A stretch of DNA of 36,992 nt from Acidobacteriaceae bacterium (lineage in GTDB: Bacteria > Acidobacteriota > Terriglobia > Terriglobales > Acidobacteriaceae): assembly GCA_003142935.1 (NCBI GenBank), contig PLOG01000139.1, forward strand, positions 1-36,992, given 5' to 3'. The notes beneath the pieces are model-generated. The model saw nothing but the letters and a program-made list of their open reading frames with translations, was not told the DNA's origin and did not search any database. Position numbers and translations under genes: made by a program. Shown here piece by piece: positions 4,503 through 35,123 of this stretch (position 1 is the first letter of the stretch; each line of letters begins with the position of its first letter).

Positions 4503-4591
4503 TTGGACAATATACGATAACTTTTCGTCACCTGTCGAGATGACAATTATCCGATCGGACAATAAGATGATGCAGAGTATTTCGCTACCCT
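4503..4591. promoter_or_regulatory. Divergent promoter region araC-like / galM operon
   Basis: The 89 bases between the chosen AraC start (4502) and the galM start (4592) must hold both promoters. The sequence is comparatively AT-rich (ATTATCCGATCGGACAATAA), and ATTATCCGATCGGACAATAA itself contains a partial dyad, ATTnTCCGATCGGAcAAT, around 4547-4564, a candidate operator. No experimentally anchored boxes can be assigned by eye. Confidence 0.35.
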
Positions 4592-5659: not shown

Positions 5660-5722
5660 ACCAATGTTTTTCCGAAAGCGGCACCTGAGAATGCAAGACA
5701 TATTCTTAAGAGGTAATTGATT

Positions 5723-8005
5723 ATGGGTACCAGTGCGACCGTGCTCGACAAATCGCCGATCTGCCAGGACTATAGCCTGACCGGCGTCAACTCTCAGCTT
5801 GCCATCGAGAAAGGCCTCGCCGAAGCCGACTGGTATCAATGCTCCGTGCCGCGCGAAACGATGCGCCAGTTGCTGGTTCGCCGCGATGGACCCGCAATCC
5901 GCGACACTGTCCTCTGGTTTGCGCTCATCATCGGCGCTGGACTTGCAACCTGGAAGCTCTGGGGTTCCTGGTGGGCGATCGTGCCCTATGCAATCTATTG
6001 CGCGCTTTACGCATCCACTTCCGACTCACGCTGGTATGAGAGCAGCCACGGAACTGCGTTCAAGACGGACTGGATGAACAACGCGCTTTATGAAATCGCC
6101 TCGTTCATGGTGATGCGGGAGTCGACAGTCTGGCGCTGGAGCCACAACCGTCATCACAGCGACACCATCATTGTAGGCCGCGATCCTGAAATCGCCGTGC
6201 CCCGACCGCCCGATTGGAGAGCAATCGTTCTGACGTTCCTCGGCGTGCGCGCTTATCCGAATTATTTTCCTGCCGTGATAAGGCACTGCATTGGCCGCAT
6301 GTCCGCCGCCGAAAAGACCTTCATTCCCGAGATAGAATTTCCCAAAGTCTATCTAAGAGCGCGCATCTACTTCCTCATCTATACCTCTGTCATCGGGATT
6401 TCAATCTACGAACGCAGCTTTCTCCCGCTCATGCTCGTCGGGCTCGCCAATCTTTTCGGCTACTGGCTCATGCCCATTTACGGGATGACGCAGCATGCGG
6501 GCCTCGCTGAAAATGTGCTCGACCACCGTCTCAACTGCAGGACCGTGTACATGAATCCGATCAACCGCTATTTCTACTGGAACATGAACTATCACGTCGA
6601 GCACCACATGTTCCCTCTTGTTCCCTATCACGCCTTGCCGCGACTGCATGCAGTCGTCAAGGACGACTGTCCCACACCGTACGCCGGCATTTCCGCCGCG
6701 TGGCGCGAGATTGTTTCCGCCCTGTTCAGGCAGATGAAGGATCCTTCCTATCATGTCAGGCGCCAGTTGCCGCCGCCAAAGACGCGCATCCGTGAGGCGA
6801 TCATTGCGTCCAAGGCCGAGGCCGATGCTCAAGGCTGGATCGAGATATGCACGGCAACCAGTTTAGGGCGAGGCGACGTCGTCCGCTTTGATCACGGCAA
6901 GAAGTCATACGCACTCTATCGCGATCAAGAGGGTAGCTTGTTCGCGACCGACGGATTCTGTACGCACGGCAATACCCATCTCGCCGACGGCCTTGTGAAA
7001 GGGAAGATTATTGAATGCCCCAAGCATAACGGGCGCTTCAATCTGATTGACGGCTCGCCGGCGCGCTCGCCCGTCTGCCGGGGGCTTGCGACCTATCCGG
7101 TCGAGGAGTGGAACGGACGAATTCATATCAATGTAATCCATCCCGGGGGCGCAGGTGCACGCTCACAAGAAACCTTCAAGTTCCGAGTGGTGAGTAACCG
7201 CAGCGTTGCCACGTTCATCAAGGAACTTATTCTTGAACCCGAGAACGGCAACGAAAAGATCACTTTCGCTCCCGGGGACTATCTGCAACTCGACATTCCC
7301 GCCTATGACTCGATCCGCTTTCGCGATTTCGACATCCCTGAGCCCTTCGCGACAGTGTGGAAGAACCAGCATGTCTTCGATCTGGTAGTGCGCAATCCCG
7401 AGGCAGGCCGTCGAAACAATTACTCGCTTGCGAGCAATCCGCAAACTGAGCGCCTGCTACGCTTCAACGTCCGCATTGCCACGCCTCCGCCTGGGCAGGA
7501 CTGTGCGCCCGGCGCCGGTTCCAGTTACGTCTTCTCGCTTAAGCCCGGCGACACGGTCTCCGCCATCGGCCCCTTCGGTGATTTCCATATCAAGCCGACG
7601 CAACATGAGATGGTTTATATCGGCGGTGGCGCCGGTATGGCTCCACTGCGCGCACATCTAGCGCACTTGCTTGAGAGCCAGCCGACCGCGCGCAAGATCA
7701 GCTACTGGTACGGCGCGCGCTCAAGACAAGAGGTTTTTTATGAAGAGTATTTCCGCGATCTCGCAGCCGTTCACCCAAATTTCACCTTTCACCTGGCGCT
7801 CTCTTCGCCGCTCGCAGAGGACAATTGGATCGGCCATACCGGCCTTATCCACGACGTCGTTCTCGAGAGCTATTTGCGCAAACACCACGCTTCAGCGGCA
7901 CTGGAATACTACCTGTGCGGACCGCCCATGATGATCAAAGCCTGCAATCGGATGCTCGCCGGGCTTGGCGTCCCAGCACAGCAGATCGCCTACGACGAAT
8001 TCTAG
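5723..8005 (+). CDS. MocD-MocE-MocF-like fusion: di-iron oxygenase, Rieske ferredoxin and NADH reductase in one chain
   Basis: 760 residues from ATG 5723 (RBS AGAGG; the TTG at 5717 is unlikely). Three modules are seen in order. (1) About 60-330: membrane fatty-acid-desaturase/alkane-hydroxylase fold with hydrophobic helices and His boxes (His109; HNRHH 142-146; HVEHH 291-295). (2) About 373-472: Rieske [2Fe-2S] domain with C413-x-H415 and C432-x2-H435. (3) About 483-760: NqrF/ferredoxin-reductase type FAD domain (RNNYSLASNP) and NAD domain (VYIGGGAGMAPLRAHL, YYLCGPPMMIKAC). In rhizobial rhizopine catabolism MocD, MocE and MocF are separate proteins needed for O-demethylation of 3-O-methyl-scyllo-inosamine. 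A self-sufficient oxidative O-demethylase for a methoxylated sugar or cyclitol is the inferred role. Hydroxylation or desaturation of a lipid is the alternative. Confidence 0.87.
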   Translation: MGTSATVLDKSPICQDYSLTGVNSQLAIEKGLAEADWYQCSVPRETMRQLLVRRDGPAIRDTVLWFALIIGAGLATWKLWGSWWAIVPYAIYCALYASTSDSRWYESSHGTAFKTDWMNNALYEIASFMVMRESTVWRWSHNRHHSDTIIVGRDPEIAVPRPPDWRAIVLTFLGVRAYPNYFPAVIRHCIGRMSAAEKTFIPEIEFPKVYLRARIYFLIYTSVIGISIYERSFLPLMLVGLANLFGYWLMPIYGMTQHAGLAENVLDHRLNCRTVYMNPINRYFYWNMNYHVEHHMFPLVPYHALPRLHAVVKDDCPTPYAGISAAWREIVSALFRQMKDPSYHVRRQLPPPKTRIREAIIASKAEADAQGWIEICTATSLGRGDVVRFDHGKKSYALYRDQEGSLFATDGFCTHGNTHLADGLVKGKIIECPKHNGRFNLIDGSPARSPVCRGLATYPVEEWNGRIHINVIHPGGAGARSQETFKFRVVSNRSVATFIKELILEPENGNEKITFAPGDYLQLDIPAYDSIRFRDFDIPEPFATVWKNQHVFDLVVRNPEAGRRNNYSLASNPQTERLLRFNVRIATPPPGQDCAPGAGSSYVFSLKPGDTVSAIGPFGDFHIKPTQHEMVYIGGGAGMAPLRAHLAHLLESQPTARKISYWYGARSRQEVFYEEYFRDLAAVHPNFTFHLALSSPLAEDNWIGHTGLIHDVVLESYLRKHHASAALEYYLCGPPMMIKACNRMLAGLGVPAQQIAYDEF

Positions 8006-8016
8006 AAAGGCCAGAA

Positions 8017-8943
8017 ATGAAACCCCATACCGGTTTTCTAAATGACGGTTCAGCAGATGCTCCAAAGCTCAATGTTTATTTAAACCTGGATAATCTCGTC
8101 GATCTGCGTGCGAATAGCTCATGGCCTCATCTCGACGGCTTGTCCGGCTACCAGCTGCTAATTGCGGATGGTTTTGAAGGTGTTCAGCTCACGACGGATG
8201 ACCCTCCGATTGCAAATGCGCCCATGCCACACTGCGGCCTGGACCGGATCAACACACCTGCAGAGGCGGATCAAGTCGCCGCCAAACACGCTGAGCGTAG
8301 CGATCTTTGCTTCACAGTTCACGCTGGCTGGGGCCTGGAAGACGAGGATGAAACCTTTCGGCTCGTCGAAGCGATACTTACCGCCTCCGATCAATACCAT
8401 CTACCCATCTTCATCGAAACACATCGCGCCACGATTACCCAGGATTTGTGGCGAACCGTGCAGATCACGAAAGCATTCCCGGAAGTTCGCTTCAACGGAG
8501 ACTTCAGTCACTACTATTGCGGGCAGGAACTTGTCTATGGCGACTGGAAAAGCAAGCTCGCATTCATGGAACCCATTTTCGATCGGGTCGGATTCATTCA
8601 TGGCCGCATCGCGAGCTCCGGCTGCATGCAAGTGCCGATCGATTCGGACCTGACTGCCCGACCACGACAAGCACACGGCGATATCGATTATCTTGCCCAT
8701 TTCAAAGAACTGTGGACGCGCGCAATGCTCGGATTCCTTCGAGCTGCCCGCCGAGGAGATGTGCTCATCTTCGCACCCGAACTTTTAACGGGAAGACACT
8801 ACTACGCCCGGATGTTTCCAAATCCTTCCGGTCAACTTCTCGAGGAGTCCGACCGCTATGCGCAAGCCCTTCTCTACAAAGACCTGGCCCGGGCATGCTT
8901 TGCGGAAGCCTCGGAGCTCGTGTCAAGGAGTGTGACTGAGTGA
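8017..8943 (+). CDS. Xylose-isomerase-like TIM barrel protein (sugar phosphate isomerase/epimerase family)
   Basis: 308 residues from ATG 8017, 11 bases after the oxygenase stop, with AAAGG as binding site; the longer open frame upstream lies inside the preceding gene. Segments such as CFTVHAGWGLEDEDE, PIFIETHRATITQD, RFNGDFSHYYCG and VGFIHGRIAS show the alternating strand/His/Glu/Asp pattern of AP-endonuclease-2/xylose isomerase-like barrels that bind a divalent metal. These enzymes isomerise, epimerise or dehydrate sugars and inositol derivatives. The operon context (epimerase, oxygenase, sugar permease) suggests it acts on the demethylated product. The exact substrate is unknown. Confidence 0.78.
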   Translation: MKPHTGFLNDGSADAPKLNVYLNLDNLVDLRANSSWPHLDGLSGYQLLIADGFEGVQLTTDDPPIANAPMPHCGLDRINTPAEADQVAAKHAERSDLCFTVHAGWGLEDEDETFRLVEAILTASDQYHLPIFIETHRATITQDLWRTVQITKAFPEVRFNGDFSHYYCGQELVYGDWKSKLAFMEPIFDRVGFIHGRIASSGCMQVPIDSDLTARPRQAHGDIDYLAHFKELWTRAMLGFLRAARRGDVLIFAPELLTGRHYYARMFPNPSGQLLEESDRYAQALLYKDLARACFAEASELVSRSVTE

Positions 8944-10304
8944 ATGTGCCTATCAATTTGCGCTATGTTGTTTTTTTGGGCAGTACCGCCGCTCTGGGAG
9001 GCCTGCTGTTCGGGTTCGACATCGCTATCATCACTGGTGCGGGTCCGTTTATTACCCGTGAATTCGCATTGAGCGATATCGGCCTCGGGTGGGCCTTCAG
9101 TTCATTGCTGTTTGGCTGCGTGCTGGGTTGCTTTATCGCAGGAAAGCTTACAGACAAGTACGGACGCAAGAAGCTGCTGCTGGGTGTCGCAGTGCTATTT
9201 GCTTTGACTTCTATCGCCACAGCCTTGGCGTCCAGTTTTACTGCCTTTGTTACTGCTCGCTTCCTGGGAGGGTTGGCGGTAGGCGGCGTCTCCCTGTTGT
9301 CTCCCATGTATGTGTCGGAGGTTTCCCCTCCTTCTATCCGTGGTCGCATGGGAACTCTGTACCAGATGTCGATCATCACCGGCATCATCGTGTCCTACGG
9401 CATCAACTACCTCCTGAGAAATACAGGGCCGAATAATTGGAGATGGATGTTTCTAACCGGAGTTGTGCCATCGGCGGTGTTTTTGATATTCATCGCACTC
9501 GCTCCCGAAACTCCTCGGTTTCTCGCGATGACAGGCAAACTGCACGAGGCATTTGCCTTGCTTGAACGTATAGGTGGCGCCGAGAGCGCTCGCGCACAGA
9601 TATCGGAGATCGCGGCAACCCTTCACAAGGAACCGCAGACCTGGCGCGCACTCATGCGACCAGGTGTCCGCCGCGCGCTATTGGTCAGTGCGGGCCTTGC
9701 AATTCTTATCCATGTCTCGGGGATCAACACCATCGTTGACTACGCTCCAGCGATCTTTCAGTCGGCCGGTTGGAGAGTGGATGGCGCTTTAGCTTCCACA
9801 TTCATCGTTGGCCTGACGGAGTTTCTCTTCACGATCATCTCCTTCTGGGTTATCGATCGGTATGGCCGCAAGCCGCTCTATATTGTTGGGTCGCTTGGCA
9901 TGGCGCTGTCTTTACTTATGCTCACCGCGACAGTGATGGCCGGCCGTTTCCACGGCGCCCTCGTTCTGGCGCTGATATTGACCTATCTGGCTTTCTTCGC
10001 ATCCTGCATAGGGCCTGTGTTTTGGACGCTCATTCCAGAGATATTCCCGAACGATGTGCGTGGGATGGCAATGACGGTACCCGTGCTTATCCAATGGGTA
10101 GCCAATGCTATTGTCGTGCTCCTGTTTCCCTATGCGTTTCATGTCATTGGCAAAACGTTCACCTTCAGCTTTCTCGCGGCGATGGCGCTTGGACAGGGGA
10201 TCTTTGCATGGCTTTGCGTACCAGAGACCAAGAACAAGCGATTGGAGGAAATCGAAGAATATTGGAACAATTCGGGGCAAGCCGCATCCGCAAAGTCTGT
10301 CTGA
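8940..10304 (+). CDS. MFS sugar porter (sugar/inositol:H+ symporter family)
   Basis: 454 residues, starting at GTG 8940 which overlaps the previous stop by 4 bases (GTGA); AAGGAG lies 9 bases upstream. Twelve hydrophobic helices and the complete sugar-porter signatures are visible: DKYGRKK after helix 2, RFLGGLAVGGVSLLSPMYVSE with the following RGRMG, PETPRFL at the end of helix 6, DRYGRKPLY, IPEIFPNDVRGMAM and the terminal PETKNKRLEEIE. Relatives transport xylose, arabinose, galactose or myo-inositol with protons across the inner membrane. It is translationally coupled to the TIM barrel, so it presumably imports the substrate of this operon. Confidence 0.93.
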   Translation: MNVPINLRYVVFLGSTAALGGLLFGFDIAIITGAGPFITREFALSDIGLGWAFSSLLFGCVLGCFIAGKLTDKYGRKKLLLGVAVLFALTSIATALASSFTAFVTARFLGGLAVGGVSLLSPMYVSEVSPPSIRGRMGTLYQMSIITGIIVSYGINYLLRNTGPNNWRWMFLTGVVPSAVFLIFIALAPETPRFLAMTGKLHEAFALLERIGGAESARAQISEIAATLHKEPQTWRALMRPGVRRALLVSAGLAILIHVSGINTIVDYAPAIFQSAGWRVDGALASTFIVGLTEFLFTIISFWVIDRYGRKPLYIVGSLGMALSLLMLTATVMAGRFHGALVLALILTYLAFFASCIGPVFWTLIPEIFPNDVRGMAMTVPVLIQWVANAIVVLLFPYAFHVIGKTFTFSFLAAMALGQGIFAWLCVPETKNKRLEEIEEYWNNSGQAASAKSV

Positions 10305-10430: not shown

Positions 10431-11708
10431 TCAGCTAGTTCCATTGAATTCATGTATTGCATCGAGCATGGCAACAATATTCTCAACCGGTGTTGCTGCC
10501 TGCACATTATGAACGGTATTAAACACGAACCCTCCATTGGATGAGAATATCTCGCACCTTTGCAGAACCTGTTCTCTGACTTCAGCTGGTGTTCCGAACG
10601 GAAGGACTCTTTGCGTGTCGACTCCCCCTCCCCAAAAAACGAGACGATCTCCGAACTCGGATTTCAATTGCCTGGGGTCCATTCCTGCCGCGGAACACTG
10701 CACCGGATTGAGAATGTCGAACCCAGCCTCGACGAGAGATGGAAGAAACTTGAAGATTGCTCCGCAGGAATGTTTGAAGGTCTTCCATTGCGTGTGCTTG
10801 TGAACCCAATCATTGACTTGTTTGTAGTAAGGAAAGTACAAATCATTGAAGGTTTTTACAGAGCAGAAGGCGGACGTCTGAGTTCCGAAATCCGTGCCGC
10901 AGATGAAGGCCGCTTGTATGCTGTTGCCGATTGCCGCATGAATTTTTTCAAGATTCAGGATGGCTGTCTCGCATTGGCGTTCAAATACCTTATGGATATA
11001 ATCCTGCCTGCTCCTGGTGGAGACGTACCACTCAGCGACGTCGCGAATGCCCCTGGGGTGCTTGAGCGAAGGGCCCGGCACCAATGCGATATCGCCGAAT
11101 GCAGTGCCGCCAAAGGTGGCGATCACTCCACGGCCCGTCAGGGCGGCCGCATGCGTGGCTCGAACAATATGGTCGAGGTCGGCCTGCGAGATCAGGCCAT
11201 ACTCCTCCAGATTATCCTCGGGATTTAGTCTTTCTTCGTCGATTGGGTCCTGGCGGACGATGCAGTCGAAGAAATGGCCGCCACTTGGCATGCGCCCGCT
11301 CGGAGCAACCGTAGTGTCGCCTTCCGGGTAGATCAGAGTGCCGCCGTCAGAGTCCATCGAGGTGTTGAAGTCCCTTGCGACCTGCACGTCGAGTCCGTTC
11401 AATCTCCACGGTTTCCATTCATCCGCAGGAAATCCAAACATGGTATTGCGCGCGAAGACGCCGACCACATCAAGCCGCATCGCCTCGATCAGATCTTCAT
11501 CCAAGAGCCCCAGCATCTGGAATGGCTCGTGGACCCGCACGGGGCGCTTTTCAAGTCCGTAATAGTCACGCAGCGCAGCCACGCAGCTCACATGCATTCC
11601 AGTCGTTGGCGTTCCTCCGAAGTCAATTGGAATTCGGTCGGGCTGCGTGTGGTTGAGAGTTGCGATGATCCGCTCAAGGCTTCCTGTCTTCTCGATCGTG
11701 GCAGTCAT
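10431..11708 (-). CDS. MtaA/uroporphyrinogen-decarboxylase-family methyltransferase
   Basis: 425 residues. ATG 11708 is chosen over the GTG at 11717 because AAGGAG lies 7 bases upstream of it and overlaps the GTG. The fold markers are those of the URO-D superfamily: PDRIPIDFGG at the start, FICGTDFGTQ, and a C-terminal VFWGGGVDTQRVLPFGTPAEV. FKHSCGAIF (His313, Cys315) matches the H-x-C zinc motif of MtaA/CmuA-type methylcorrinoid methyltransferases; a clear third ligand is not identified. These enzymes move a methyl group between a corrinoid protein and a second acceptor (CoM in methanogens, probably tetrahydrofolate in bacteria). It is the last gene of the corrinoid operon, 42 bases after the activator gene, and so is the expected second-half-reaction enzyme. 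It is not the heme-pathway HemE. Confidence 0.8.
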   Translation of the reverse strand: MTATIEKTGSLERIIATLNHTQPDRIPIDFGGTPTTGMHVSCVAALRDYYGLEKRPVRVHEPFQMLGLLDEDLIEAMRLDVVGVFARNTMFGFPADEWKPWRLNGLDVQVARDFNTSMDSDGGTLIYPEGDTTVAPSGRMPSGGHFFDCIVRQDPIDEERLNPEDNLEEYGLISQADLDHIVRATHAAALTGRGVIATFGGTAFGDIALVPGPSLKHPRGIRDVAEWYVSTRSRQDYIHKVFERQCETAILNLEKIHAAIGNSIQAAFICGTDFGTQTSAFCSVKTFNDLYFPYYKQVNDWVHKHTQWKTFKHSCGAIFKFLPSLVEAGFDILNPVQCSAAGMDPRQLKSEFGDRLVFWGGGVDTQRVLPFGTPAEVREQVLQRCEIFSSNGGFVFNTVHNVQAATPVENIVAMLDAIHEFNGTS

Positions 11709-11750
11709 TGTATTCACTCCTTGCTCTTATCTTTTTCCTGACGCGTATCG

Positions 11751-13298
11751 TTACCGCTCGCGTGTGTCTGCAATTTTCGAGTTGTTGTATGTCTCCGCCT
11801 CTTGGCTATGGTCATCCGCCGCGGGAAACCTCATGCAGTTCGCGAACTCGTCCTGGAAATCAATGTCGGTGGCGAGGCTCACGTGCTCGATCGGAGGCAG
11901 CGCGCTTTCCCTGGAGGCGACCAGGAGCATTTTTGCCCCTCGGAGCGCAGTGTTGCCGGCCGCGTAAACCCGTTCGCGGTGCGCCTCGAGCAAGCCGATA
12001 CGGAGTGCGCTTTCAATTTGCACATAGTTGCCAAAGGCGCCCGCGAGATGGATGCTCTTGAGATCGCCGGCAGTCGCGCCGAGGCGTTTGAGAAGCAGCT
12101 TGAATCCCGAGGCTATCGCGCCCTTTGCCAATTGCAGTTCGCGCACGTCGGCCTGACAAAGAACGACGGGGTGGGCAATGGGAAAGAGTTTTGTGCCGTT
12201 GGCGATCCGTCCAGAAGGAAGAATAGCCCCGGTGCGAAGGCCGACAGCGATGGCGTCGACAAGTCCGCTGCCGCAGATGCCACGCGGCTCGACGTCGCCA
12301 ACGACATCTGCATGGATCTCTTCGCCGCAAAGCGACACGTGAGAAATGGCGCCAGTGGCCGCGCGCATGCCCATCCGAATGCATCCAGCTTCAAAGGCCG
12401 GCCCCGCGGCGGCAGAGACGCAAACGATGCCAAAGCGGTTGCCGATAGCGATTTCACCGTTTGTTCCGAGGTCGACCATGGCCATGAGATGGTCGCTTTG
12501 TGCAATGCCGGTTGCGAGGATTCCGGCAAGGATGTCAGAGCCGACAAACCCTCCCAGACAGGGTGCGAAGCGAATTTTGCAGGTTGACGGCAGATGCCAG
12601 CCGAGATCTTGCGGGCAGAATGTCTGACCTCCAAGATTTGGTGAGACGAAGGGGGCATGCGAGAGCGGTTCAACGTCGCAGCCGGAGAACAGATGATGCA
12701 TTACGGTGTTGCCGACGAGGATGACCTCGGCAACCTCCGGCTCGCGGCCGCGGGCCAGGCGCATGACGAGTTGCCCGAGGAGTACGCGAAGCATCTTGGT
12801 CAGATCATCGCCCTGGAGCGTAGCCCGAATTCTGCTCATGACGTCGGAGCCGAACGAGGCCTGGGGATTGAGCTCGGTTTCCACTCCCAGAACTTTGCCG
12901 GTAGCGAGGTCAAGGATTTGCGCGGCAATGGTCGTGGTGCCGAGATCGATCGCGATGCCGAGGCCGTGTTTTCCGGAACCGATGAGGCAAGCATCGTCGG
13001 TGAGGACATCCATGCGCCACTGGCAGCACTCAAGGACCAGAGGCATGAGGGCGCGCGCCTGACAGGCGAGACGCCAGCCAAGCGCAAGCTGCTCGGGCAG
13101 GAAGGCCGTGCGGTCTGGGTCGGTGACAGGAAGGGAGCCGGAAAGGACGCGAACTGCGCACCCTCCACAGGTTCCGGTGCCTCCGCAGGGAAATTCGATG
13201 CCTTGGCCTGAGAGTGCCTTGATGAGCTGCGTGCCGACAGGCGTTTCGATTTCCAACGCCAGCGGCTCCAGGCGAATGCGGACTTGATCCCTGCTCAT
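11751..13298 (-). CDS. RamA-like ATP-dependent reductive activator of corrinoid proteins (2Fe-2S + ASKHA)
   Basis: 515 residues. ATG 13298 overlaps the stop of the upstream DUF1638 gene (ATGA), so upstream starts are rejected. Residues 1-90 are a plant-type ferredoxin domain with C38-x5-C44-x2-C47 and C79. The rest is an ASKHA ATPase-like domain (the DUF4445/RACE type): GIAIDLGTTTIAAQIL, VGNTVMHHLFSG, MVDLGTNGEIAIG, ICGSGLVDAIA, LAGAFGNYV and AGNTALRGAKMLL. Members use ATP and an electron donor to re-reduce inactive cob(II)alamin to cob(I)alamin on corrinoid proteins such as MtaC. The gene sits next to the corrinoid and methyltransferase genes, which fits that function exactly. Confidence 0.92.
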   Translation of the reverse strand: MSRDQVRIRLEPLALEIETPVGTQLIKALSGQGIEFPCGGTGTCGGCAVRVLSGSLPVTDPDRTAFLPEQLALGWRLACQARALMPLVLECCQWRMDVLTDDACLIGSGKHGLGIAIDLGTTTIAAQILDLATGKVLGVETELNPQASFGSDVMSRIRATLQGDDLTKMLRVLLGQLVMRLARGREPEVAEVILVGNTVMHHLFSGCDVEPLSHAPFVSPNLGGQTFCPQDLGWHLPSTCKIRFAPCLGGFVGSDILAGILATGIAQSDHLMAMVDLGTNGEIAIGNRFGIVCVSAAAGPAFEAGCIRMGMRAATGAISHVSLCGEEIHADVVGDVEPRGICGSGLVDAIAVGLRTGAILPSGRIANGTKLFPIAHPVVLCQADVRELQLAKGAIASGFKLLLKRLGATAGDLKSIHLAGAFGNYVQIESALRIGLLEAHRERVYAAGNTALRGAKMLLVASRESALPPIEHVSLATDIDFQDEFANCMRFPAADDHSQEAETYNNSKIADTRER

Positions 13299-14041
13299 AC
13301 TGTGTCCACGATGCTGTCGCCGAGTGTTGCCCGGATGGTTTCGCCGGGCGCCACAACCAGGAAATGGGCCGCGTCCCATTCGTGGTCGACCAGGCGCTGG
13401 ATCAGCTTAAGAGTGCCCTTGATTTCGTCGAAAGCCCAACCTTCCTTGCCGGCCTCGGCGCGTGCTTTGATGCGGCTGGGCTCGTCAGACGGAACGGCTG
13501 TGGAGATATAGGTGAGGCCTGAATAGTGACTGCGAAAGGCGTTGAATTGCTCGAATAAATAGGCGCCGTTTTCCTCGCCGTACTGGGCGGTCAACTCAGC
13601 GAGAGTGCGGCGCTCTCCAAGCGAAGTTTTTTGCGAGGTGAATGCAGGTTCGAGCATCATCCCTGGAGTCTGAAACTCAATCCATCCGGGCGAGCGATAG
13701 TAGACGCCAGGGTGATTTTGAAAGTAATCCTCATAGGTGGGATGGCCGCCCATGAGCAAGCCGATGCAATCGTGCACGCGGGGAAGAACCAGTGGCGTTT
13801 TTCCTGCGCGCAACCCTTCAGTGCCGCGGCCGCAGAGCGCGTAGCCGAGAAGGATCGCGTCGAAGCCGGCATTGTCGGCTGCGTCGATACGTTCTTGCAG
13901 GTGTGGGCGCATGCCTACGCCAAGATCGTGCAGGCCCATTGGCACAATCTCGATTTCGATCGAATGGGGTGAGCGGGAGACAACGCGCTCCATCTCGCGC
14001 GTGAAGACCTGACATGTGATGGCTTTAAAGCGCATGTTCAT
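13295..14041 (-). CDS. DUF1638 family protein
   Basis: 248 residues from ATG 14041, with GGGGAG 7 bases upstream. The family markers are FDAILLGYALCGRGTEGL, VLPRVHDCIGLLMG and YYRSPGWIEFQTPGM; conserved Cys/His pairs (HDC) suggest metal or cofactor binding. DUF1638 proteins often lie in clusters with corrinoid methyltransferases and activators, but no reaction has been assigned to them that I know of. Here it lies between the MtaB-like and activator genes and overlaps the latter by 4 bases, so it is probably translated together with it and may help corrinoid loading or repair. Confidence 0.85.
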   Translation of the reverse strand: MNMRFKAITCQVFTREMERVVSRSPHSIEIEIVPMGLHDLGVGMRPHLQERIDAADNAGFDAILLGYALCGRGTEGLRAGKTPLVLPRVHDCIGLLMGGHPTYEDYFQNHPGVYYRSPGWIEFQTPGMMLEPAFTSQKTSLGERRTLAELTAQYGEENGAYLFEQFNAFRSHYSGLTYISTAVPSDEPSRIKARAEAGKEGWAFDEIKGTLKLIQRLVDHEWDAAHFLVVAPGETIRATLGDSIVDTV

Positions 14042-14096
14042 TCAACGTCTCCCCATCGGCGGTGCCGTCGGGGCATGGAAGACTGGCTCGCCACGC

Positions 14097-15491
14097 CTAC
14101 AGCCCATAACTCGCTTTGTCGTACAGGCTGCCATATTGTGCTTCGAGATCGACCAAGAGCGCGTCCTCTTCGGCCGGAAATCTCTCCAAGGCTTCGTCAA
14201 TGCGCGCAAGCCATTGCAACTCTTTTCGGGAGAGATGGAGTTTTTGCTCCGCAACGCCATCCTTCAGAACTTGAACTGCGGCTTGACCGGCGGCAATTAC
14301 GCGATGATAGGGCGTGTCCGTTGCGACGATTGCGGCGGCGATACGAATTATCGCGTCAGGCGAGAGAACGGCAGCTTGAGGGCTCAGCCACTCGTCCGAT
14401 GCCACCATCCAGTTGCGCAATTGCAGGGCTCCGCCCGGAGCGCAGGCGGCCGTGTTCATCAACCGGCAATCGTAGGCAAGTAGTTCGGTATAGGCTTCAG
14501 GCGCGTTGCCGGAAAGCAAGCGCACATTCTGCACCGACTCATTGCTCCACAGGTCGCACATCGCGGCGGCGATGTTGCCGACGGGGCTGAAGTGCGCGCA
14601 ACTGGCCGACTTGCCCTCCATTGCGATTGGGCGGCCTGTGATTGCTTTGAGGATCGGGCCTTCGTAGGCGCAATCTTTCGATGGACCAACTGCGCCCTGC
14701 TCGAAGGCAGAAAGACTGCGCACTGCGCTCATGGCTCGGACCACGGCGGCGAGCACTTCGGGAAGCATTTTCTGGTGGGCGAGTTGCATGGCCGTATTTG
14801 CGAATCCGCATGCGGAGTCGCCGCCACTTACAACGCCGGGATGCGCGGCGCAGATCTGGCCAATCTGGGCCCACAGCCAGGACATATCTCTTGGGGCGAG
14901 GACTCCGAGGGCAAAGACGATGCCTGAGAAATCCCCGTACATCAGCGCCTGGTCGTGGACCTCTTTGCCGCCAATCGATTCGATGGAGAGGATGTCGGCA
15001 CCGGCTTTAGCGCAGAGCTCCAACGATTGCTTGAGCTGCCGCCATGGTTCGCCTGTGCGCATCAGCGGCGGTTTTTGCTGATCGCGAATATCGGTGGGCG
15101 TGACGCGCAGAGCGCAGGGTAGATGATATTTCTCATGCGCGGTTGCGAGATGCCGCTTGAGGACCGCGGTGATCTCTGCCCCCCACACCGGATGGTCAGT
15201 CATGGGCGGCAGAAGTTCAAATTCAAGGACGATGCCGTGAACACCAAGGGAAACAGCGCGGCGCAGAATTTGCGATGCCATCTCGTCGTAGTGGGCCACA
15301 ACAACCGGCCAAGTCCCGGACTCGATATTCATGGCGGGCAGAGTGAAGTTGACTTCAGGGAAAACTTGTCCTGCCCCGATCGTCAAGCCAAGGCCACAGG
15401 CAAGCGGAAGTGGACTTACGCCGTACAGAAGGTCATCGGGACGTTGGATGGCGAGCGTTGAGTATTTGAGGACAGTCTCGGTGATCATCAT
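14097..15491 (-). CDS. mtaB: MtaB-like methanol:corrinoid methyltransferase
   Basis: 464 residues, against 461 in methanogen MtaB. The start ATG ATG at 15491/15488 directly abuts the TAA of the corrinoid gene. All three zinc-ligand motifs are present: SIESIGGKEV (Glu171), GGDSACGFANTAMQLA (Cys228) and VGPSKDCAYEGPILKAITG (Cys274), spaced as in the crystallised Methanosarcina enzyme (Glu164, Cys220, Cys269). MtaB activates methanol and transfers the methyl to Co(I) of MtaC. Having the intact zinc site and the matching partner gene makes true MtaB chemistry likely. Another small methyl donor is possible since bacterial members are little studied. Confidence 0.92.
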   Translation of the reverse strand: MMITETVLKYSTLAIQRPDDLLYGVSPLPLACGLGLTIGAGQVFPEVNFTLPAMNIESGTWPVVVAHYDEMASQILRRAVSLGVHGIVLEFELLPPMTDHPVWGAEITAVLKRHLATAHEKYHLPCALRVTPTDIRDQQKPPLMRTGEPWRQLKQSLELCAKAGADILSIESIGGKEVHDQALMYGDFSGIVFALGVLAPRDMSWLWAQIGQICAAHPGVVSGGDSACGFANTAMQLAHQKMLPEVLAAVVRAMSAVRSLSAFEQGAVGPSKDCAYEGPILKAITGRPIAMEGKSASCAHFSPVGNIAAAMCDLWSNESVQNVRLLSGNAPEAYTELLAYDCRLMNTAACAPGGALQLRNWMVASDEWLSPQAAVLSPDAIIRIAAAIVATDTPYHRVIAAGQAAVQVLKDGVAEQKLHLSRKELQWLARIDEALERFPAEEDALLVDLEAQYGSLYDKASYGL

Positions 15492-16130
15492 TTATGCCAC
15501 TGCCAACAGACTCTTGACCAGGCCGACCGCGCCGTTGGCATTCTCACTGTAGCCGTCAGCGCCAATCTCTTTGGCGTACTGACTGGTCACGGGCGCACCG
15601 CCAAGAAGGACCTTTACCTGGGTGCGTACGCCAGCCTTGCTTAGCGCGTCAATGGTTGTCTTCATCGCGGGCATGGTTACGGTAAGCAGCGCCGACATGC
15701 ACACGATATGGGGTTGACGCTCCTTGACGGCTGCGACAAACGCCTCTGGCGAAACATCCGCGCCAAGATCGATCACTTCGAAGCCGCTGCCCTCGAGCAT
15801 GGAGGCCACAATGTTCTTGCCGATATCGTGGAGGTCACCCTTGACTGTTCCGATGATGACGCGGACAGCCATTTTCTGCCCGGAGGCGACGAGCAGCGGC
15901 TTGATCAGTTCCATGGCGCTCTTCATGGCGCGACCAGCAAGCAAAAGCTCGGGGACAAAGTACTCCTCGGCTTCAAAGAGCTTTCCGACTTCGTCCATGG
16001 CGGGCACCATGGAGTCGGCAATCAGCTGCATTGGTTCCGCGCCCTCTGCCAGAGCCGTTTCGGTGGCAGCGTGTGCCCTTTTCGCATCGCCGTTGAGAAT
16101 CGCGTCGAAGAGTTCTTTAGACAGTGCCAT
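15492..16130 (-). CDS. mtaC: MtaC-like corrinoid protein
   Basis: 212 residues from ATG 16130, with GAGGAAG upstream. Residues 1-85 form the helical methionine-synthase-like cap domain; residues 88-212 the B12-binding Rossmann domain with GTVKGDLHDIGKNIV (D99-x-H101-x2-G104, where His101 is the lower cobalt ligand), MSALLTVTM and LLGGAPV. It carries the methyl group between MtaB and the second methyltransferase. It is encoded directly before mtaB with no gap and its start overlaps the DUF6580 gene by 14 bases. Confidence 0.95.
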   Translation of the reverse strand: MALSKELFDAILNGDAKRAHAATETALAEGAEPMQLIADSMVPAMDEVGKLFEAEEYFVPELLLAGRAMKSAMELIKPLLVASGQKMAVRVIIGTVKGDLHDIGKNIVASMLEGSGFEVIDLGADVSPEAFVAAVKERQPHIVCMSALLTVTMPAMKTTIDALSKAGVRTQVKVLLGGAPVTSQYAKEIGADGYSENANGAVGLVKSLLAVA

Positions 16131-16728
16131 ATTCTTCTTCCTCTAAACTGAATTCGCCGGGATCATTCGGTCCATGTAAACGCGCTGCCGGTATGATTCT
16201 TTGGATGGCATGGCCGAGGGTAAAAATCATCACGCTGCCGATCGCCTCGGAGATTATGCTATTGCGAAAAAATGGAAGCGCCGCAGAGTAGCAGGCTGCG
16301 AGGCCACCTGGAGTCCTGGGATACATGCCCCATTCAGCCCACACAGTAAAGTTGCTCACCACAAAGAATGAAATCGAAGCAAACAAAGAAGACCCGAGCA
16401 CCTGGCTGGATGAAATGGAACCACCCAGGACCGTGCCGCCGAGGAACAAGGCAACCAGGTACCAGGTCCAGGTGACGGCATGACCGGCAGTGAGTGCAAA
16501 GCCGTACTGGTGCGTGGTTAAAAAGATGTCGACAGCCACAAGAGCGAGAAGCGGGATGCCGAATTCCCGCCTGGGCCTACACGCTCCAAAAAAGAGAAGG
16601 CATGAGAAAACAGGTATCAGGTTATTGGGGCAGATGAGACTCAAACGAAGCACTGCGGCCCCTGCGATGAGAATGTACGGAAGGACCACAAGTTGTTTTC
16701 CACTGAGACGCTTGATCGTGAATATCAT
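16117..16728 (-). CDS. DUF6580 family membrane protein (putative transporter component)
   Basis: 203 residues from ATG 16728 with GGAAGG upstream; the 20-residue upstream extension (to 16788) is rejected because it reads through a strong hairpin. About five hydrophobic helices are seen, with the family features FFVVSNFTVWAEWGMYPRT followed by GLAACYSAALPFFRNSIISE. DUF6580 proteins resemble S-components of ECF vitamin transporters. As first gene of a corrinoid-enzyme operon it is a candidate cobalamin, cobalt or corrinoid-precursor importer; this is inference from context. The C-terminal tail (SLEEEEYGTV) overlaps the start of mtaC. Confidence 0.8.
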   Translation of the reverse strand: MIFTIKRLSGKQLVVLPYILIAGAAVLRLSLICPNNLIPVFSCLLFFGACRPRREFGIPLLALVAVDIFLTTHQYGFALTAGHAVTWTWYLVALFLGGTVLGGSISSSQVLGSSLFASISFFVVSNFTVWAEWGMYPRTPGGLAACYSAALPFFRNSIISEAIGSVMIFTLGHAIQRIIPAARLHGPNDPGEFSLEEEEYGTV

Positions 16729-17311: not shown

Positions 17312-19594
17312 TTAGGACGAATGCGGGTACAGTGTCTCGATCCTTCCCCCGGGCCCTTTCACGCGATCATTTCCTTTACGTTTGGTTTCCGGGGGATGCC
17401 GCAACGTTACGGAAACGGAATCTGTCGTTGGCGACAAGGTGACGATTCCCTCCTCGGAATTGACGGTTCCTGCATTCGCTGCAGCAATGTTGCCCTTGAA
17501 GGCAGGCAAGTTGAACAAGACGTCTCCGTTCCTTACATCTCCCCAGATCCGCAGCTCAATTGTGGATCGACCTGAGGCGATCCTGAAACTGATCCTGCGG
17601 CCTTCATTCACATTCACATTTGCCCACTCTACAACGTTTCCCGGTTCCAGCCAGTAGTCTGGAATGCCGCGGCCGATGATGACCGTGCCGTCGATCTTGA
17701 CGGAGGCGCACATCTGAAGCAATGCCTGCTTGGTAAAGCTGGCTCCCCAGCTATCAAGATTTCCATAGCTTACGGGTGGTACATACATCCCGACCCAAGC
17801 GTCCCTCCCCTTGTATTCGAATGCCTCAGACCAGTTGTACGGCGCGCACTGGTTCTCAAGCTGAAACTCAAGATTCTTGACCACCTCTGTCCTGTATGCG
17901 TCGGAGTATAGACACTGCAGCCCGGCACTGCAGTTGTAGGCGGTCCCGTAAGTAACTTGCCCCCACCACGTGCCCCAACTTCCTTCGGGAATTCCTTTTC
18001 TATCTCGCACCTCCAGGGCGTGACGAATGGAATCGTCAAACTTTTCCTTCCAGAATCCGCCTAGATCAAACCCTTTCAAATACGCGCCCCAGGGAAATGT
18101 GCTTAACGCTCCCGAGTAAGGGACCCAGGAGTAATCGGAATCACCATATCGCTCTAATGTGACGTCGTCGAATCCGCCCTCGTAATAGTCAATATGCCGG
18201 CGTGCAGAGGTCTGGCTCAGAGCCCTGTTCACGCTATCGTTCAAATCAACCATCTCCTTGGCGGCCCACTCCGCTTCGTCCATCTCGCCCAGACGCCTGC
18301 ATATATGTTGATACGCCTGAAGCCCATGAAGTGCCGACCAGTTGTCGCAGAGCAAATAGTCTCCATCATCCGCCCAGTTCTCAAAATCCTGCGATTTCTT
18401 CATCAGCCCATAGTGCTCTTTGTCGTTGAATGACCTCAACGCATGAATGTTGCGAACGGCTTTCTTGAGTTCTTCCCGAACCGACACGGTGAAGTAGGCG
18501 AGGTCTCCGGTGCACCGCAGATACTCGGCGTATGGAATGAGATACTTCCCGAGCGTGTCTTCGTAGATGGGATCCGTCGCCTCCCGGCCTCTCCAAGTGG
18601 TACTGTTTGAGGCCTTGAAATACTTACTGGCCAACATCCTTTTTGCAATGTCGAAGTCCCCCTCTCTCATATATTGATCGACATAGTTTGGAGCATCGTG
18701 GGAAAAGGGCTGGTCATAGTTGTCGTTGTTGAAAGGATTCCTGGGAGCCGCGTGAATCTCATAGTCCTCCCCATTCTTAACCATGTTTTCCCAAGTCGTG
18801 ATTTGAATGGATTTGTACATTTCGACCATTCCGGCAACGGGAAGGCTGATTGGCTCCGCCAGGCCTGCCATGCGGCCGTTCCAATACTTCGCCATGGCCT
18901 CGTAGTTGGAATCGAACCCACCTGCCGATTTCAACACCGCAGGATCAACCGGAGAGCCCGCGGCAAATGCCACGAAATCCCTCGTAACCGAATCCCCTGG
19001 GTTTACGGAAATATCGAAGTACATGTCGGTATTGCTCTGGCCTGTGCACTCTCCTGAGAGCGGTATCTCTATATCGGGGCGTGAACTGACGTTGAGCCGA
19101 ACAACCTTGGGAACCAAGCCTGTGCCTGTAACGCGGACGCGCGAGTATACCGCGGTTAGATGGTCAGCAAGGACACGATTGGCGAAGTGCTGAATCTCCA
19201 CGCGAAACGTCCCGGCCATCCACTGGGAGATGGGACATGGAAGGTATCCATCCCGCAAGTACCACTTGATCCGCGATTTACGGTCCAGGGCGAACTCGTC
19301 CGGGGTATAAGTCGCTCCATCGACTGTAACCGTGTACTGGATAAGGTCTCCCAGGCCCGGCGCCACTCCTCCCCCCATGAATGTCCACGATTTTGGATGA
19401 TCGTTCTCCCATCCGATATACAACCATTTCAAAAGATCATAGTCGTAAAATGGCGATCTGCCTGCACGATTAGGCTCTTCCTGGCCAGGCTCTGGTAGTG
19501 CGGTTTCAGACACCGCGTTGGCACGTTGAGCCCGGACAACGAGGCCAGCCGCAATGGTCTGTAACCCGCACTTCACGAATCCGCGTCGGTTCAT
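17312..19594 (-). CDS. Tat-exported putative glycoside hydrolase, (alpha/alpha)6-like, family not recognised
   Basis: 760 residues from ATG 19594 with GGAGG 6 bases upstream. The N-terminus MNRRGFVKCGLQTIAAGLVV is a Tat-type signal ending near ANA. An N-terminal beta-rich region (about 60-230) is followed by a helical region (about 250-640) with Trp/Tyr/Asp-rich motifs spaced as in six-hairpin glycosidases (NNDNYDQPFSHDAPNY, FENWADDGDYLLCDNWSALHG, GSWGTWWGQVTYGTAYN, NQCAPYNWSEAFEYKGRDAW) and a small C-terminal beta domain. This layout is that of clan GH-L/GH-M or GH63/GH94-like toroid enzymes. I cannot assign the family. It is the last gene of the glycan locus and presumably works in the periplasm. 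Confidence 0.7.
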   Translation of the reverse strand: MNRRGFVKCGLQTIAAGLVVRAQRANAVSETALPEPGQEEPNRAGRSPFYDYDLLKWLYIGWENDHPKSWTFMGGGVAPGLGDLIQYTVTVDGATYTPDEFALDRKSRIKWYLRDGYLPCPISQWMAGTFRVEIQHFANRVLADHLTAVYSRVRVTGTGLVPKVVRLNVSSRPDIEIPLSGECTGQSNTDMYFDISVNPGDSVTRDFVAFAAGSPVDPAVLKSAGGFDSNYEAMAKYWNGRMAGLAEPISLPVAGMVEMYKSIQITTWENMVKNGEDYEIHAAPRNPFNNDNYDQPFSHDAPNYVDQYMREGDFDIAKRMLASKYFKASNSTTWRGREATDPIYEDTLGKYLIPYAEYLRCTGDLAYFTVSVREELKKAVRNIHALRSFNDKEHYGLMKKSQDFENWADDGDYLLCDNWSALHGLQAYQHICRRLGEMDEAEWAAKEMVDLNDSVNRALSQTSARRHIDYYEGGFDDVTLERYGDSDYSWVPYSGALSTFPWGAYLKGFDLGGFWKEKFDDSIRHALEVRDRKGIPEGSWGTWWGQVTYGTAYNCSAGLQCLYSDAYRTEVVKNLEFQLENQCAPYNWSEAFEYKGRDAWVGMYVPPVSYGNLDSWGASFTKQALLQMCASVKIDGTVIIGRGIPDYWLEPGNVVEWANVNVNEGRRISFRIASGRSTIELRIWGDVRNGDVLFNLPAFKGNIAAANAGTVNSEEGIVTLSPTTDSVSVTLRHPPETKRKGNDRVKGPGGRIETLYPHSS

Positions 19595-19678
19595 TTCAAT
19601 CCTCCAAATGGTGAAATTGACTCAAGGCCCTCAGTAAACTCCGGCAAGCCGGTTGATGTTTTCGGAGTTGTTTTGATC

Positions 19679-21010
19679 TCAGCTTCGCAAAAAGCGTTCA
19701 TTGAGCGTGCGATGCCACTGCACGTCCTTCCAATTTGCGAACTGCGGTTGGGCGTAGTTGAACGGCGTCCAGCCCCAGAATTTGCAGGCAATTGCATCGT
19801 CTACAGACCACTTTGCCCAATCCAGCAGCCAGCCCCAGTCCAACCTGGGGTCATCGATGTAGTACCACGTGGCCCACGATTCAGAAGTCGTCAACGGCAT
19901 GCCGCGCCGCTCAGCCCATCCGGCAAACTGCGACGCCTTGAATCTCTGGCGCGCGCGTAACATCGGCGCCATGGCCGCTGCGGTCTTGATCGAGCGATCG
20001 GAAAACTCCTTGAACCAACGATCATTTCGGAATATCCCGTCATCGACAAACTCATCGAAGCGCGTTCGCTCAGTCCAGCGCGGGTCGGCATCGGCATAGA
20101 AGTGCACATCGAGGCAGTCGAGTTCAAGCGGCACGTCGAGCCAGCGCAAGTCCCCGTGAATTGAAGTGGTGAAGCGCAACTCTGGAAACTCCCGCCGCAA
20201 CAGACCCAAAGCTTTGTTGATCTCACCTGCGAGGAAGGAAATCTGGGCTGGGGAGAAGATGTCGCCCTCATTGAAGCTTGCGCCTGTCTCTTTTCTCAAT
20301 CTTTCTTGCAAGTCTGGAAAGAAGTATGGCGTTTCATTGGCAATGTCGACATAGATAATTCGATCCAGACCGAATCGCTTCTTCCACTCGGTCAACGTGA
20401 CAGCCCACATCTCCGCTCCTTCCGTCATGTTCGCGGGCTTGCGAAGAGCAGCAGGCACAGGGGGAGATGTTGGAGATCCTGGCATGAACCACCAGCCGCT
20501 CAATGTGTAGTGAAGCGAACTGCGCTTCTGCAACTTCTCTATGAATTCCATGATCCAAAGTGCCACCGGGCCTTTCACCGCTGTATTCCAATTCCATGGC
20601 ATATAGGGCTCGTGCGGATCGGGCCATTCCAGGATGCGCTCGGGTTTGCTGAAGTCGAGCCACTGCGGCATCGGATCAATGCGCAGGGTGTTATAGCCCC
20701 GCTCGACTGCCTCATCCAGAACACGGTCATAATCCGCGAAGCTGCCGCCGGGCTGATGACGTAGCGCGTACGCCACATCCCACATGGCAATAGTCAATCT
20801 CCTGGGATTTAGATGATCGCGCATGTCGTAGTCATCAATCCGACTTGTCGCGGCGTGGGAAGACCTATCGCTTGCTACTTGCATAGGTATTTGAGCGAAG
20901 ACCCGGGCACTTTGCGCGGTCTCTTGGGCAGCAACATCCCTGCCGCTGGTCAACGCCGTCAACGCGCCAGCTGCTCCGTATGCAATGAGTTCACGCCTCG
21001 ATACGGGCAT
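19679..21010 (-). CDS. Cellulase-like TIM-barrel glycoside hydrolase (clan GH-A type), exported
   Basis: 443 residues from ATG 21010. It begins PVSRRELIAYGAAGAL, a Tat-like signal. Features of a GH-A (beta/alpha)8 barrel are seen: YVDIANETPYF with Glu226 after Asn as the acid/base, and TTSESWATWYY with Glu377 as the candidate nucleophile; CLDVHFYAD and KFWGWTPFNYAQP are substrate-strand motifs. Families related to cellulase-like, endoglycosidase or beta-glycosidase proteins are possible; the exact family is not recognised. It lies between two helical-toroid enzymes in the locus. Confidence 0.72.
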   Translation of the reverse strand: MPVSRRELIAYGAAGALTALTSGRDVAAQETAQSARVFAQIPMQVASDRSSHAATSRIDDYDMRDHLNPRRLTIAMWDVAYALRHQPGGSFADYDRVLDEAVERGYNTLRIDPMPQWLDFSKPERILEWPDPHEPYMPWNWNTAVKGPVALWIMEFIEKLQKRSSLHYTLSGWWFMPGSPTSPPVPAALRKPANMTEGAEMWAVTLTEWKKRFGLDRIIYVDIANETPYFFPDLQERLRKETGASFNEGDIFSPAQISFLAGEINKALGLLRREFPELRFTTSIHGDLRWLDVPLELDCLDVHFYADADPRWTERTRFDEFVDDGIFRNDRWFKEFSDRSIKTAAAMAPMLRARQRFKASQFAGWAERRGMPLTTSESWATWYYIDDPRLDWGWLLDWAKWSVDDAIACKFWGWTPFNYAQPQFANWKDVQWHRTLNERFLRS

Positions 21011-21142
21011 TTCCTTGTTCTCCTTCTTTCTTCAGTGCATTCCTGCGAGATAGTTCAAATCGAATGATTGTAGTTCCTATGCCAGTGCTCAAAAGGTCTC
21101 TAAGAAGTTCCACGACTCTATCAACCGCGAGCACCGCGCAAT

Positions 21143-23197: not shown

Positions 23198-23323
23198 TTA
23201 CATCCCCTTGCAGATCATAAGAGATTTGAAGGGATTGGCCGCGCGAGGTTTATGCGCCAATCGATACCTTGGTCTGTAGCGCGCGAGGTCGAACTAGACC
23301 AACTGCCAGTGTGAGTTGCGATT

Positions 23324-25420: not shown

Positions 25421-25593
25421 CGGGATTCCTCTCTATCTTGGTCCTTCTCAGATCTCAGTCCGAGCGCCGCATCTGCTAAATCGGAAGACCGCCTGGATTG
25501 GTCCATCTCCGAAACAAATAAGCAGTTTCCCAGGTAAAATCCAGGCCTGCGGTGCTTCTCGCAGCCAAAAGTAGCAACTCCCCACCCTTCGGG

Positions 25594-28290: not shown

Positions 28291-28389
28291 CGGATACTGT
28301 TCAATCTTCCACAATTTGAATTACACCTGAGCGTGGATCGGAGGTATCTCCGCCGGCCACGTGCTGTACTCAAGGGCGGTCAAAAGGGC

Positions 28390-28414
28390 ACGTGCAGGCG
28401 AGAGGCCTGCACGT
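28390..28414 (-). terminator. Candidate terminator of the TonB receptor gene
   Basis: A perfect 10-bp stem ACGTGCAGGC (28390-28399) with GCCTGCACGT (28405-28414) around a five-base loop lies 26 bases past the receptor stop, and on the minus strand it is followed by GCCCTTTTG. The stem and short T run suggest partial termination, so that the receptor is made in larger amounts than the enzymes downstream. Confidence 0.65.
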
Positions 28415-28439
28415 ACCATGGTTAGGGGTAATGCGCGAA

Positions 28440-32279: not shown

Positions 32280-32329
32280 TTCAACCTCCATTACCGTTTC
32301 TGCCATTTCTTCCTCCACTAGCGTTTCTG
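32276..32329. repeat. 27-bp tandem duplication of the receptor RBS and start codon
   Basis: Two imperfect 27-base units (32276-32302 and 32303-32329), each containing GGAGG plus ATGGCAG on the minus strand, place two in-frame starts 27 bases apart (32279 and 32306). The decayed second copy of this region at 34568-34594 has only one unit, so the duplication arose after the larger duplication or was lost in the other copy. Confidence 0.7.
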
Positions 32330-35107: not shown

Positions 35108-35123
35108 TACTTTCTGTCGAATG

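Follow-up and report, generated by a model that had tools for sequence, protein, structure and literature searches.

We analysed a stretch of 36,992 nucleotides (hereafter the window; contig PLOG01000139.1 of assembly GCA_003142935.1, from an Acidobacteriaceae bacterium) that carries an MtaB-type corrinoid methyltransferase operon of six packed genes on the minus strand (10431-16728). In order of transcription, these encode DUF6580, a corrinoid protein in the position of MtaC, MtaB, DUF1638, a RACo-type activator, and a UroD-like protein, here termed UroD_A (Table 1). The intergenic gaps are -14, 0, 55, -7, and 33 bases, the fourth being counted from the RACo frame start at 13301 (-4 from the ATG at 13298). 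All six genes exceeded their Pfam cut-offs, with 516.7 bits for MtaB (cut-off 25), 108.1 for the B12-binding domain (32.1), 200.4 for RACo_C_ter (27), 109.2 for DUF1638 (27), 99 for DUF6580 (27), and 58.6 for URO-D (23.9). These scores lie far above chance, and the gene set is real and ordered; coordinates, gaps, and Pfam matches thus confirm the six tightly packed genes of the original prediction. No cobalamin riboswitch reached the gathering score in or near the operon in the seven sources scanned, the sole match being one tRNA. Homologs of the leading DUF6580 gene were located upstream of MtaC at four other loci (L004, L027, L030, and L031); its hydropathy count gave one segment above the strict threshold, and its topology was left unassigned.

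The MtaB match to the Methanosarcina barkeri enzyme (2i2x_A; PDB sequence search) covers residues 9-455 with an E-value of 5.5e-95, at 39.2% identity for the window protein and 36.5-39.7% across bacterial rows. E164, C220, and C269, which we take to be the zinc ligands of M. barkeri MtaB in its own numbering, were aligned in all 30 rows (29 bacterial sequences plus M. barkeri as the numbering reference), and the predicted presence of all three ligands holds. On sequence grounds, donor-to-corrinoid methyl transfer is a well-supported predicted function of the operon.

The corrinoid protein retains both its cobamide-binding domains and the DxHxxG motif. Its best NCBIfam score was for MtgC_2 (204 bits, cut-off 370), followed by TIGR02370 (196) and MtbC (179), all below the cut-offs, as were its scores on the two methanol MtaC equivalogs (135.6 of 450 and 129 of 420 bits). 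The nearest PDB sequence was 1y80, with 2i2x_B placed 12th of 25. The activator comprises an N-terminal plant-type 2Fe-2S domain (C39, C45, C48, and C80, numbered from the frame start at 13301), a Raco middle domain, and a RACo C-terminal domain, and matched PDB 3zyy at E 6.5e-69. Its score on the RamA model TIGR04270 was 130.6 bits against a cut-off of 500, so that of the proposed RamA-like activator the corrinoid-activating role stands on the RACo domains, and RamA gives way to a RACo-type protein. The predicted fold of DUF1638 (pLDDT 76) matched no PDB entry at an E-value of 0.001 or below; PDB sequence searches gave no usable match for either DUF1638 or UroD_A.

Mutant fitness in aerobically grown Phaeobacter showed that B12-dependent methionine synthesis requires DUF1638 as well as a RamA-like protein carrying a ferredoxin domain; the authors offered no specific role for DUF1638 (PMC5764234). 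A related aerobic B12 system in Ruegeria demethylates glycine betaine (PMC12478193). Because of these parallels, the activation half of the operon resembles that of aerobes, although RACo is also widespread elsewhere in the phylum.

Table 1. Predicted genes of the methyltransferase operon and the adjoining sugar module, in window coordinates.
Feature	Position	Strand	Basis
DUF6580, small hydrophobic protein, first operon gene	16117-16728	minus	PF20221, 99 bits
Corrinoid protein in MtaC position, DxHxxG at residue 99	15492-16130	minus	PF02310, PF02607; MtgC_2, 204 bits
MtaB-type donor:corrinoid methyltransferase (MTI)	14097-15491	minus	PF12176; 2i2x_A, E 5.5e-95; zinc ligands
DUF1638, presumed corrinoid-reactivation partner	13295-14041	minus	PF07796, 109 bits; Phaeobacter genetic link (PMC5764234)
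RACo-type corrinoid reductive activator	11751-13298	minus	PF00111, PF17651, PF14574; PDB 3zyy, 4c1n
UroD_A, of the UroD superfamily; candidate for the second methyltransferase or for an additional donor-specific one	10431-11717	minus	PF01208; HxC plus His
Sugar-porter MFS transporter, convergent with operon	8940-10304	plus	PF00083, 367 bits
TIM-barrel sugar isomerase/epimerase-like protein	8008-8943	plus	weak tblastn matches; no Pfam match
Fused desaturase-type oxygenase, MocE-like Rieske, and NAD(P)H reductase (MocD-E-F-like)	5717-8005	plus	PF00487, PF00355, PF00175
Aldose 1-epimerase (galM-like)	4592-5659	plus	PF01263, 237 bits; TIGR02636, 247 bits, under cut-off
AraC-type regulator adjoining sugar module	3498-4562	minus	PF02311, 34.5 bits

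The host genome (G000; 5.2 Mb, 219 contigs, 97% complete, 4.1% contaminated) contains two strong genes for COX1, the haem-copper oxidase subunit I, alongside MetH (1694.5 bits, cut-off 1497), MTHFR, and a homocysteine methyltransferase/MTHFR fusion. The oxidases and the Acidobacteriaceae relatives of its MtaB are compatible with the likely aerobic acidobacterium originally proposed. There were nine B12-binding matches, eight of them above the cut-off and four of MtaC type (105-110 bits), and no CobS match in G000. Since MetH and the B12-binding matches are present and CobS had no match, the host uses cobamides and probably imports them, which answers in part the call to check for a cobamide source: use is indicated, and the source would be import.

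UroD_A matched URO-D in its C-terminal half only and fell below the cut-offs of three MtaA-type models (MtaA/CmuA; 41.2 of 244, 32 of 235.4, and 19.4 of 400 bits). Of the predicted MtaA/UroD-like second methyltransferase, the UroD likeness therefore survives, and the name MtaA does not have the standing of a result. HxC is present, and a His occupies the third-ligand place in all four UroD_A rows, a place that is approximate in an alignment of 14-25% identity; in the same alignment the UroD2 proteins and the MtaA-like protein of locus L009 have Cys there, HxC plus a third Cys being what we take to be the zinc ligands of MtaA. The predicted fold of UroD_A had a mean pLDDT of 48, and the model was not used. 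UroD2, with HxC plus Cys, lies between MtaC and MtaB in L004, L006, L027, and the copy on contig C46 of the host, with a remnant on contig C165, and the L009 operon holds a clearer MtaA-like gene (153 bits, still below the cut-off of 235.4).

No separate pterin-binding methyltransferase, MtgD included, was found in the 97% complete G000, where the PF00809 matches were FolP and MetH only. Methyl transfer to tetrahydrofolate (THF), as originally predicted, is therefore unproven; the operon encodes a UroD-like protein instead, and that part of the prediction is unsupported. A genome of the same genus, G345, encodes RACo, DUF1638, a corrinoid protein, UroD2, and a UroD protein in that order (L136, 499-6592), with MtaB in neither that stretch nor the genome. 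MtaB thus seems to have been plugged into a pre-existing corrinoid core. The UroD protein of G345 likely serves as the donor-specific enzyme there, and UroD_A may therefore be donor-specific as well.

The host carries three intact MtaB genes, four of MtaC type, and two RACo genes with open frames, distributed over five loci. The C46 locus reads DUF6580-MtaC-UroD2-MtaB-RhaT-SDR-DUF6786-UroD_A-UroD3 and has no activator. On C165 (L030), MTTB stands with a GbcA-like Rieske protein that reaches 320 bits, short of its cut-off; they are followed by DUF6580, MtaC, the UroD2 remnant, MtaB, and the start of DUF1638 fused to the end of RACo. The remaining two loci are C169 (L048, 7592-9817), with MtaC, MtaB reduced to its final 69 codons, and UroD_A, and C202 (L055, 13531-16416), with the C-terminal ends of MtaC and MtaB followed by DUF1638, RACo, and a phosphohexomutase; in L004 and L027, the set with UroD2 adjoins a phosphohexomutase like that of C202. 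The simplest reading is amplification of the operon followed by deletions, with activation retained at two loci, misassembly being possible. On L030, the fused DUF1638-RACo frame (777-1040, minus strand) is joined in frame and has the appearance of a deletion scar. Also on L030, the GbcA-like Rieske oxygenase adjoins the MTTB-family methyltransferase upstream of mtaC-mtaB (4941-7675, minus strand), again placing oxygen-dependent and corrinoid demethylase types side by side.

Among 396 sampled genomes of the phylum, G000 alone had an MtaB match. In the named collection, 26 genomes had MtaB, by title 25 Acidobacteriota and one planctomycete, each with a single MtaB (split into two pieces in two of them); five of the 26 homologs came from isolates named after bog, fen, or palsa. 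Plasmids and viral contigs yielded no MtaB, the PDB held one, and the contig scan gave close relatives only (26 loci), the nearest being from Acidobacteriaceae metagenome-assembled genomes, from which the same family is deduced for the host. Eleven MtaB sequences, including all three of G000, were placed in one clade (100/100), and the planctomycete was among the remaining bacterial rows. M. barkeri, on a very long branch, was the only outgroup, so this tree cannot test the origin of MtaB, and its bootstrap had not settled. The MtaB copies linked to Moc-type genes were considered as a single clade, which the tree contradicts. Six loci (L004, L006, L007, L009, L014, and L027) keep the order MtaC, MtaB, DUF1638, RACo, which UroD-type or other genes interrupt in L004, L006, L009, and L027.

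Convergent with the operon and 126 bp from it lies a sugar module consisting of AraC, aldose epimerase, a desaturase-Rieske-reductase fusion, a TIM-barrel protein, and a porter. MocDEF strips the O-methyl group from the rhizopine 3-O-methyl-scyllo-inosamine, and the desaturase and MocE parts of the fusion are approximately 52% identical to rhizobial desaturase/MocE gene pairs (tblastn). The histidine and Rieske motifs are present, with a score on the MocE family model TIGR02377 of 114.3 bits against a cut-off of 136.15. The TIM-barrel protein had weak tblastn matches to plasmid genes named sugar phosphate isomerase/epimerase, and its homologs (40-72% identity) adjoin a Moc-type fusion at five loci (L115, L121, L122, L126, and L127). 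Module genes also stand near MtaB elsewhere: in L008, a porter homolog (86% identity) lies 217 bp after MtaB; in L005, a porter homolog (73%) lies 118 bp before MtaB, also preceded by a TIM-barrel gene cut by the contig end; and in genome G399 (L007/L127), a complete sugar module follows the mta operon. We read the linkage between module and MtaB as real in four genomes, without its proving a single pathway. Modules or their parts also occur away from MtaB (L115, L121, and L122).

At E 1e-100 or better, the fusion was found in eight of the 396 phylum genomes, G000 counted. Among the 26 named MtaB genomes, it was full or nearly full in six, and a contig-end piece was present in one. We opened three rhizobial regions around homologs of the fusion. 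In all three, the next genes encode an FAD oxidoreductase and a PanB-like protein; one region adds FolD, PurU, IolG (inositol dehydrogenase), and a sugar ABC system. Downstream of the G345 fusion are MocA/IolG-like and xylose-isomerase-like genes. Phage-type integrases lie just past the porter homolog beside the fusion in L121 (13028-15174) and L123 (10892-11947), a hint of mobility. On plasmid p2 of Rhizobium bangladeshense (L058, 1-5785), a few genes separate the desaturase-MocE genes from a cluster for cobalamin biosynthesis. A GH2 glycosidase directly follows MtaB in two other acidobacterial genomes (L022, 2275-4170; L025, 3482-5392). The large proteins of L007 and L008 were considered as one glycosidase family and rejected, there being no mutual blastp match.

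To see whether sugar genes characterise MtaB loci in general, we compared the families of 38 proximal with those of 36 distal control open reading frames (ORFs), both sets chosen by an automatic ORF picker prone to errors where GC content is high. On the proximal side, 48 of the 90 ORFs were scanned (10 plus 38), as were two more of L017, the others being shorter, doubtful, or known operon genes. The family lists represent 25 of 28 proximal and 25 of 29 distal families, without assignment to ORFs. GFO_IDH_MocA appeared twice in each, the xylose-isomerase-like TIM barrel three times proximally against once distally, and sulfatase distally only, among the families listed. The two lists were alike, and therefore no enrichment of sugar genes is claimed.

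Compared with known systems, the operon shares with M. barkeri MtaBC (2i2x) the MtaB family, the zinc ligands, and the pairing of MtaB with a corrinoid protein. It differs in the 39% identity of MtaB, in a corrinoid protein that favours MtgC/MtbC/MttC types, and in having DUF1638, a RACo-type activator, and a UroD-like protein below the MtaA cut-offs. In Moorella, the methanol MtaA (29.7 kDa) is described as handing the methyl group on to THF; bacterial MtaB with a corrinoid protein is common to the acetogen mtaABC of Moorella and Acetobacterium and to the operon here, whereas here there is a UroD-family protein, no dedicated pterin methyltransferase was found, and the host has terminal oxidases (PMC13391211). 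The split methionine synthase and MtgBCD of roseobacters are similar in their separate corrinoid protein, ferredoxin-domain RamA-like protein, DUF1638, and aerobic host, and unlike in that their donor protein is MtgB of the MttB family, not MtaB, and in MtgD, which the PF00809 search of G000 did not recover (PMC5764234, PMC12478193). The mocDEF genes, part of rhizopine catabolism in rhizobia, offer the same desaturase, MocE ferredoxin, and reductase modules, which here form one fused protein that is merely a neighbour of the operon (PMC10107442).

At Stordalen Mire, Acidobacteriota expressed mtaB and genes for methoxy compounds in bog and fen, and methanol was measured in palsa, bog, and fen peat; gene and phylum are shared with our case, and the account, in the passages considered here, covers mtxB markers and transcripts rather than the operon or sugar neighbours (PMC10805028). 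Of the metagenome-assembled genomes from Slate River, 1.6% had mtaB, with other corrinoid methyltransferase genes in Acidobacteriota (PMC11264602). An MtaB homolog was noted in an Opitutaceae genome in 2008 (PMC2474590), and MtaB is mentioned for Verrucomicrobia (PMC2474590, PMC4842900). With these reports in print, mtaB in Acidobacteriota, and beyond methanogens and acetogens, is not new, and the original prediction's statement that such systems are known from those two groups is incomplete, given also the B12 methyl transfer with a RamA-like protein in aerobes (PMC10805028, PMC2474590, PMC5764234, PMC12478193). No paper describing MtaB with a DUF1638, RACo, or MocDEF-like neighbour was found by our searches, which covered open-licence PMC papers. 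The enzyme is of a known type, in unusual company and an unusual setting.

The observed gene content and order, metal-ligand residues, conservation, and linkage lead us to propose, with a probability of roughly 0.55, that the operon would be an oxygen-independent entry of O-bound methyl groups into C1 metabolism, beside a module for methylated or methanol-yielding carbohydrate. The donor, acceptor, direction, and co-regulation are what we infer in the steps that follow. MtaB, at its zinc site, would transfer the methyl of a small O-methyl donor to the Co(I) cobamide of the protein in MtaC position. The donor would be methanol or an O-methyl sugar (a sugar methyl ether), methanol being the conservative choice and possibly originating in methylated plant glycans. 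With reducing power and ATP, the RACo-type protein and DUF1638 would restore Co(II) to Co(I) after oxidation by oxygen or during turnover, which would suit an oxygen-respiring host. UroD_A, or UroD2 from another locus, may then move the methyl to an acceptor, possibly a thiol, possibly THF. The sugar module would handle the methylated or methanol-yielding carbohydrate, its oxygenase acting as the oxygen-dependent counterpart. In favour are the families, motifs, and domains of MtaB, the corrinoid protein, and the activator, the gene order kept at other loci, the MtaB-free core of G345, UroD2 with its HxC plus Cys, the DUF1638 and RamA-like requirement in Phaeobacter, the Acidobacteriota mtaB transcripts in methanol-containing peat (PMC10805028), the oxidases, MetH, and MTHFR of G000, and the sugar-module genes near MtaB in L005, L007, and L008. 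Several findings weigh against it. MtaB scored 428.2 bits on the methanogen methanol equivalog NF040651 (cut-off 720), and UroD2 is absent from the window copy, making the second methyltransferase there uncertain. RACo occurs in 70 of the 396 phylum genomes, G000 counted, and without MtaB in 69 of the other 395, so the activator is not MtaB-specific. Seven of these 395 hold the fusion, none with an MtaB match; in five of the seven MtaB genomes with a full fusion (our own included), it is on a different contig from MtaB; and the proximal and distal family lists are alike.

The neighbouring genes also allow that the direct donor is a sugar or cyclitol methyl ether, MtaB (and perhaps UroD_A) being a corrinoid O-demethylase for the substrate of the MocDEF-like fusion, which we consider a tentative alternative. 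In its favour are the fusion, porter, mutarotase, and TIM barrel that adjoin the operon, the module genes near MtaB in three further genomes, the inositol dehydrogenase, FolD, PurU, and sugar ABC genes of one of three rhizobial regions, the genes that follow the G345 fusion, and the RhaT-like symporter and SDR beside the C46 MtaB. However, the MtaB zinc site is unchanged, the MtaB copies with such linkage do not form a single clade, the fusion occurs both without MtaB and unlinked to it, and the linkage could reflect shared regulation alone; moreover, we know of no MtaB homolog with a sugar-ether substrate. A bolder form, somewhat less probable still, has MtaB recruited as a sugar/cyclitol-ether O-demethylase with the MocDEF-like protein as partner, such that the locus may demethylate with and without oxygen, the methyl leaving via a UroD-family protein and not a pterin-binding methyltransferase.

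It is unlikely that the operon supplies methyl groups, for methionine or another methylated thiol, instead of serving methylotrophy. In that case, the UroD proteins would methylate a thiol, which is consistent with the weak scores of HxC-site UroD proteins on thiol (CoM) methyltransferase models and with no dedicated pterin methyltransferase being found in G000 by PF00809, but G000 has a complete MetH and the homocysteine methyltransferase/MTHFR fusion, and therefore methionine synthesis needs no extra route. Least probable is a reading of the loci as remains, in decay and without present function, of an anaerobic system acquired by transfer: although truncated genes or fused remnants mark three of the five G000 loci (C165, C169, and C202) and a fourth has no activator (C46), the window copy has six open frames, frames are open in three MtaB, four MtaC-type, and two RACo genes, and orthologs hold the gene order across genomes.

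Should the operon work as we favour, as an oxygen-independent entry of O-bound methyl groups, some Acidobacteriota of soil and peat that have genes for respiring oxygen would use an enzyme taken as a marker of anaerobic methylotrophy, and may tap methyl pools, such as methanol and methylated glycans, that also feed methanogens. Labelling every MtaB as the methanol enzyme of anaerobes would then be unsafe, and the question is raised of what accepts the methyl where no pterin-binding methyltransferase was found.

Beyond the operon, the window contains a second glycan-type locus (17312-32477, minus strand) encoding a 760-aa protein without a Pfam match, cellulase-like, GH63-like, GH42, and beta-helix proteins, and a large outer-membrane beta-barrel protein. 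Finally, 34917-35111 holds a partial duplicate, a fragment sharing 68% identity with residues 1-69 of the protein encoded at 32650-33849.

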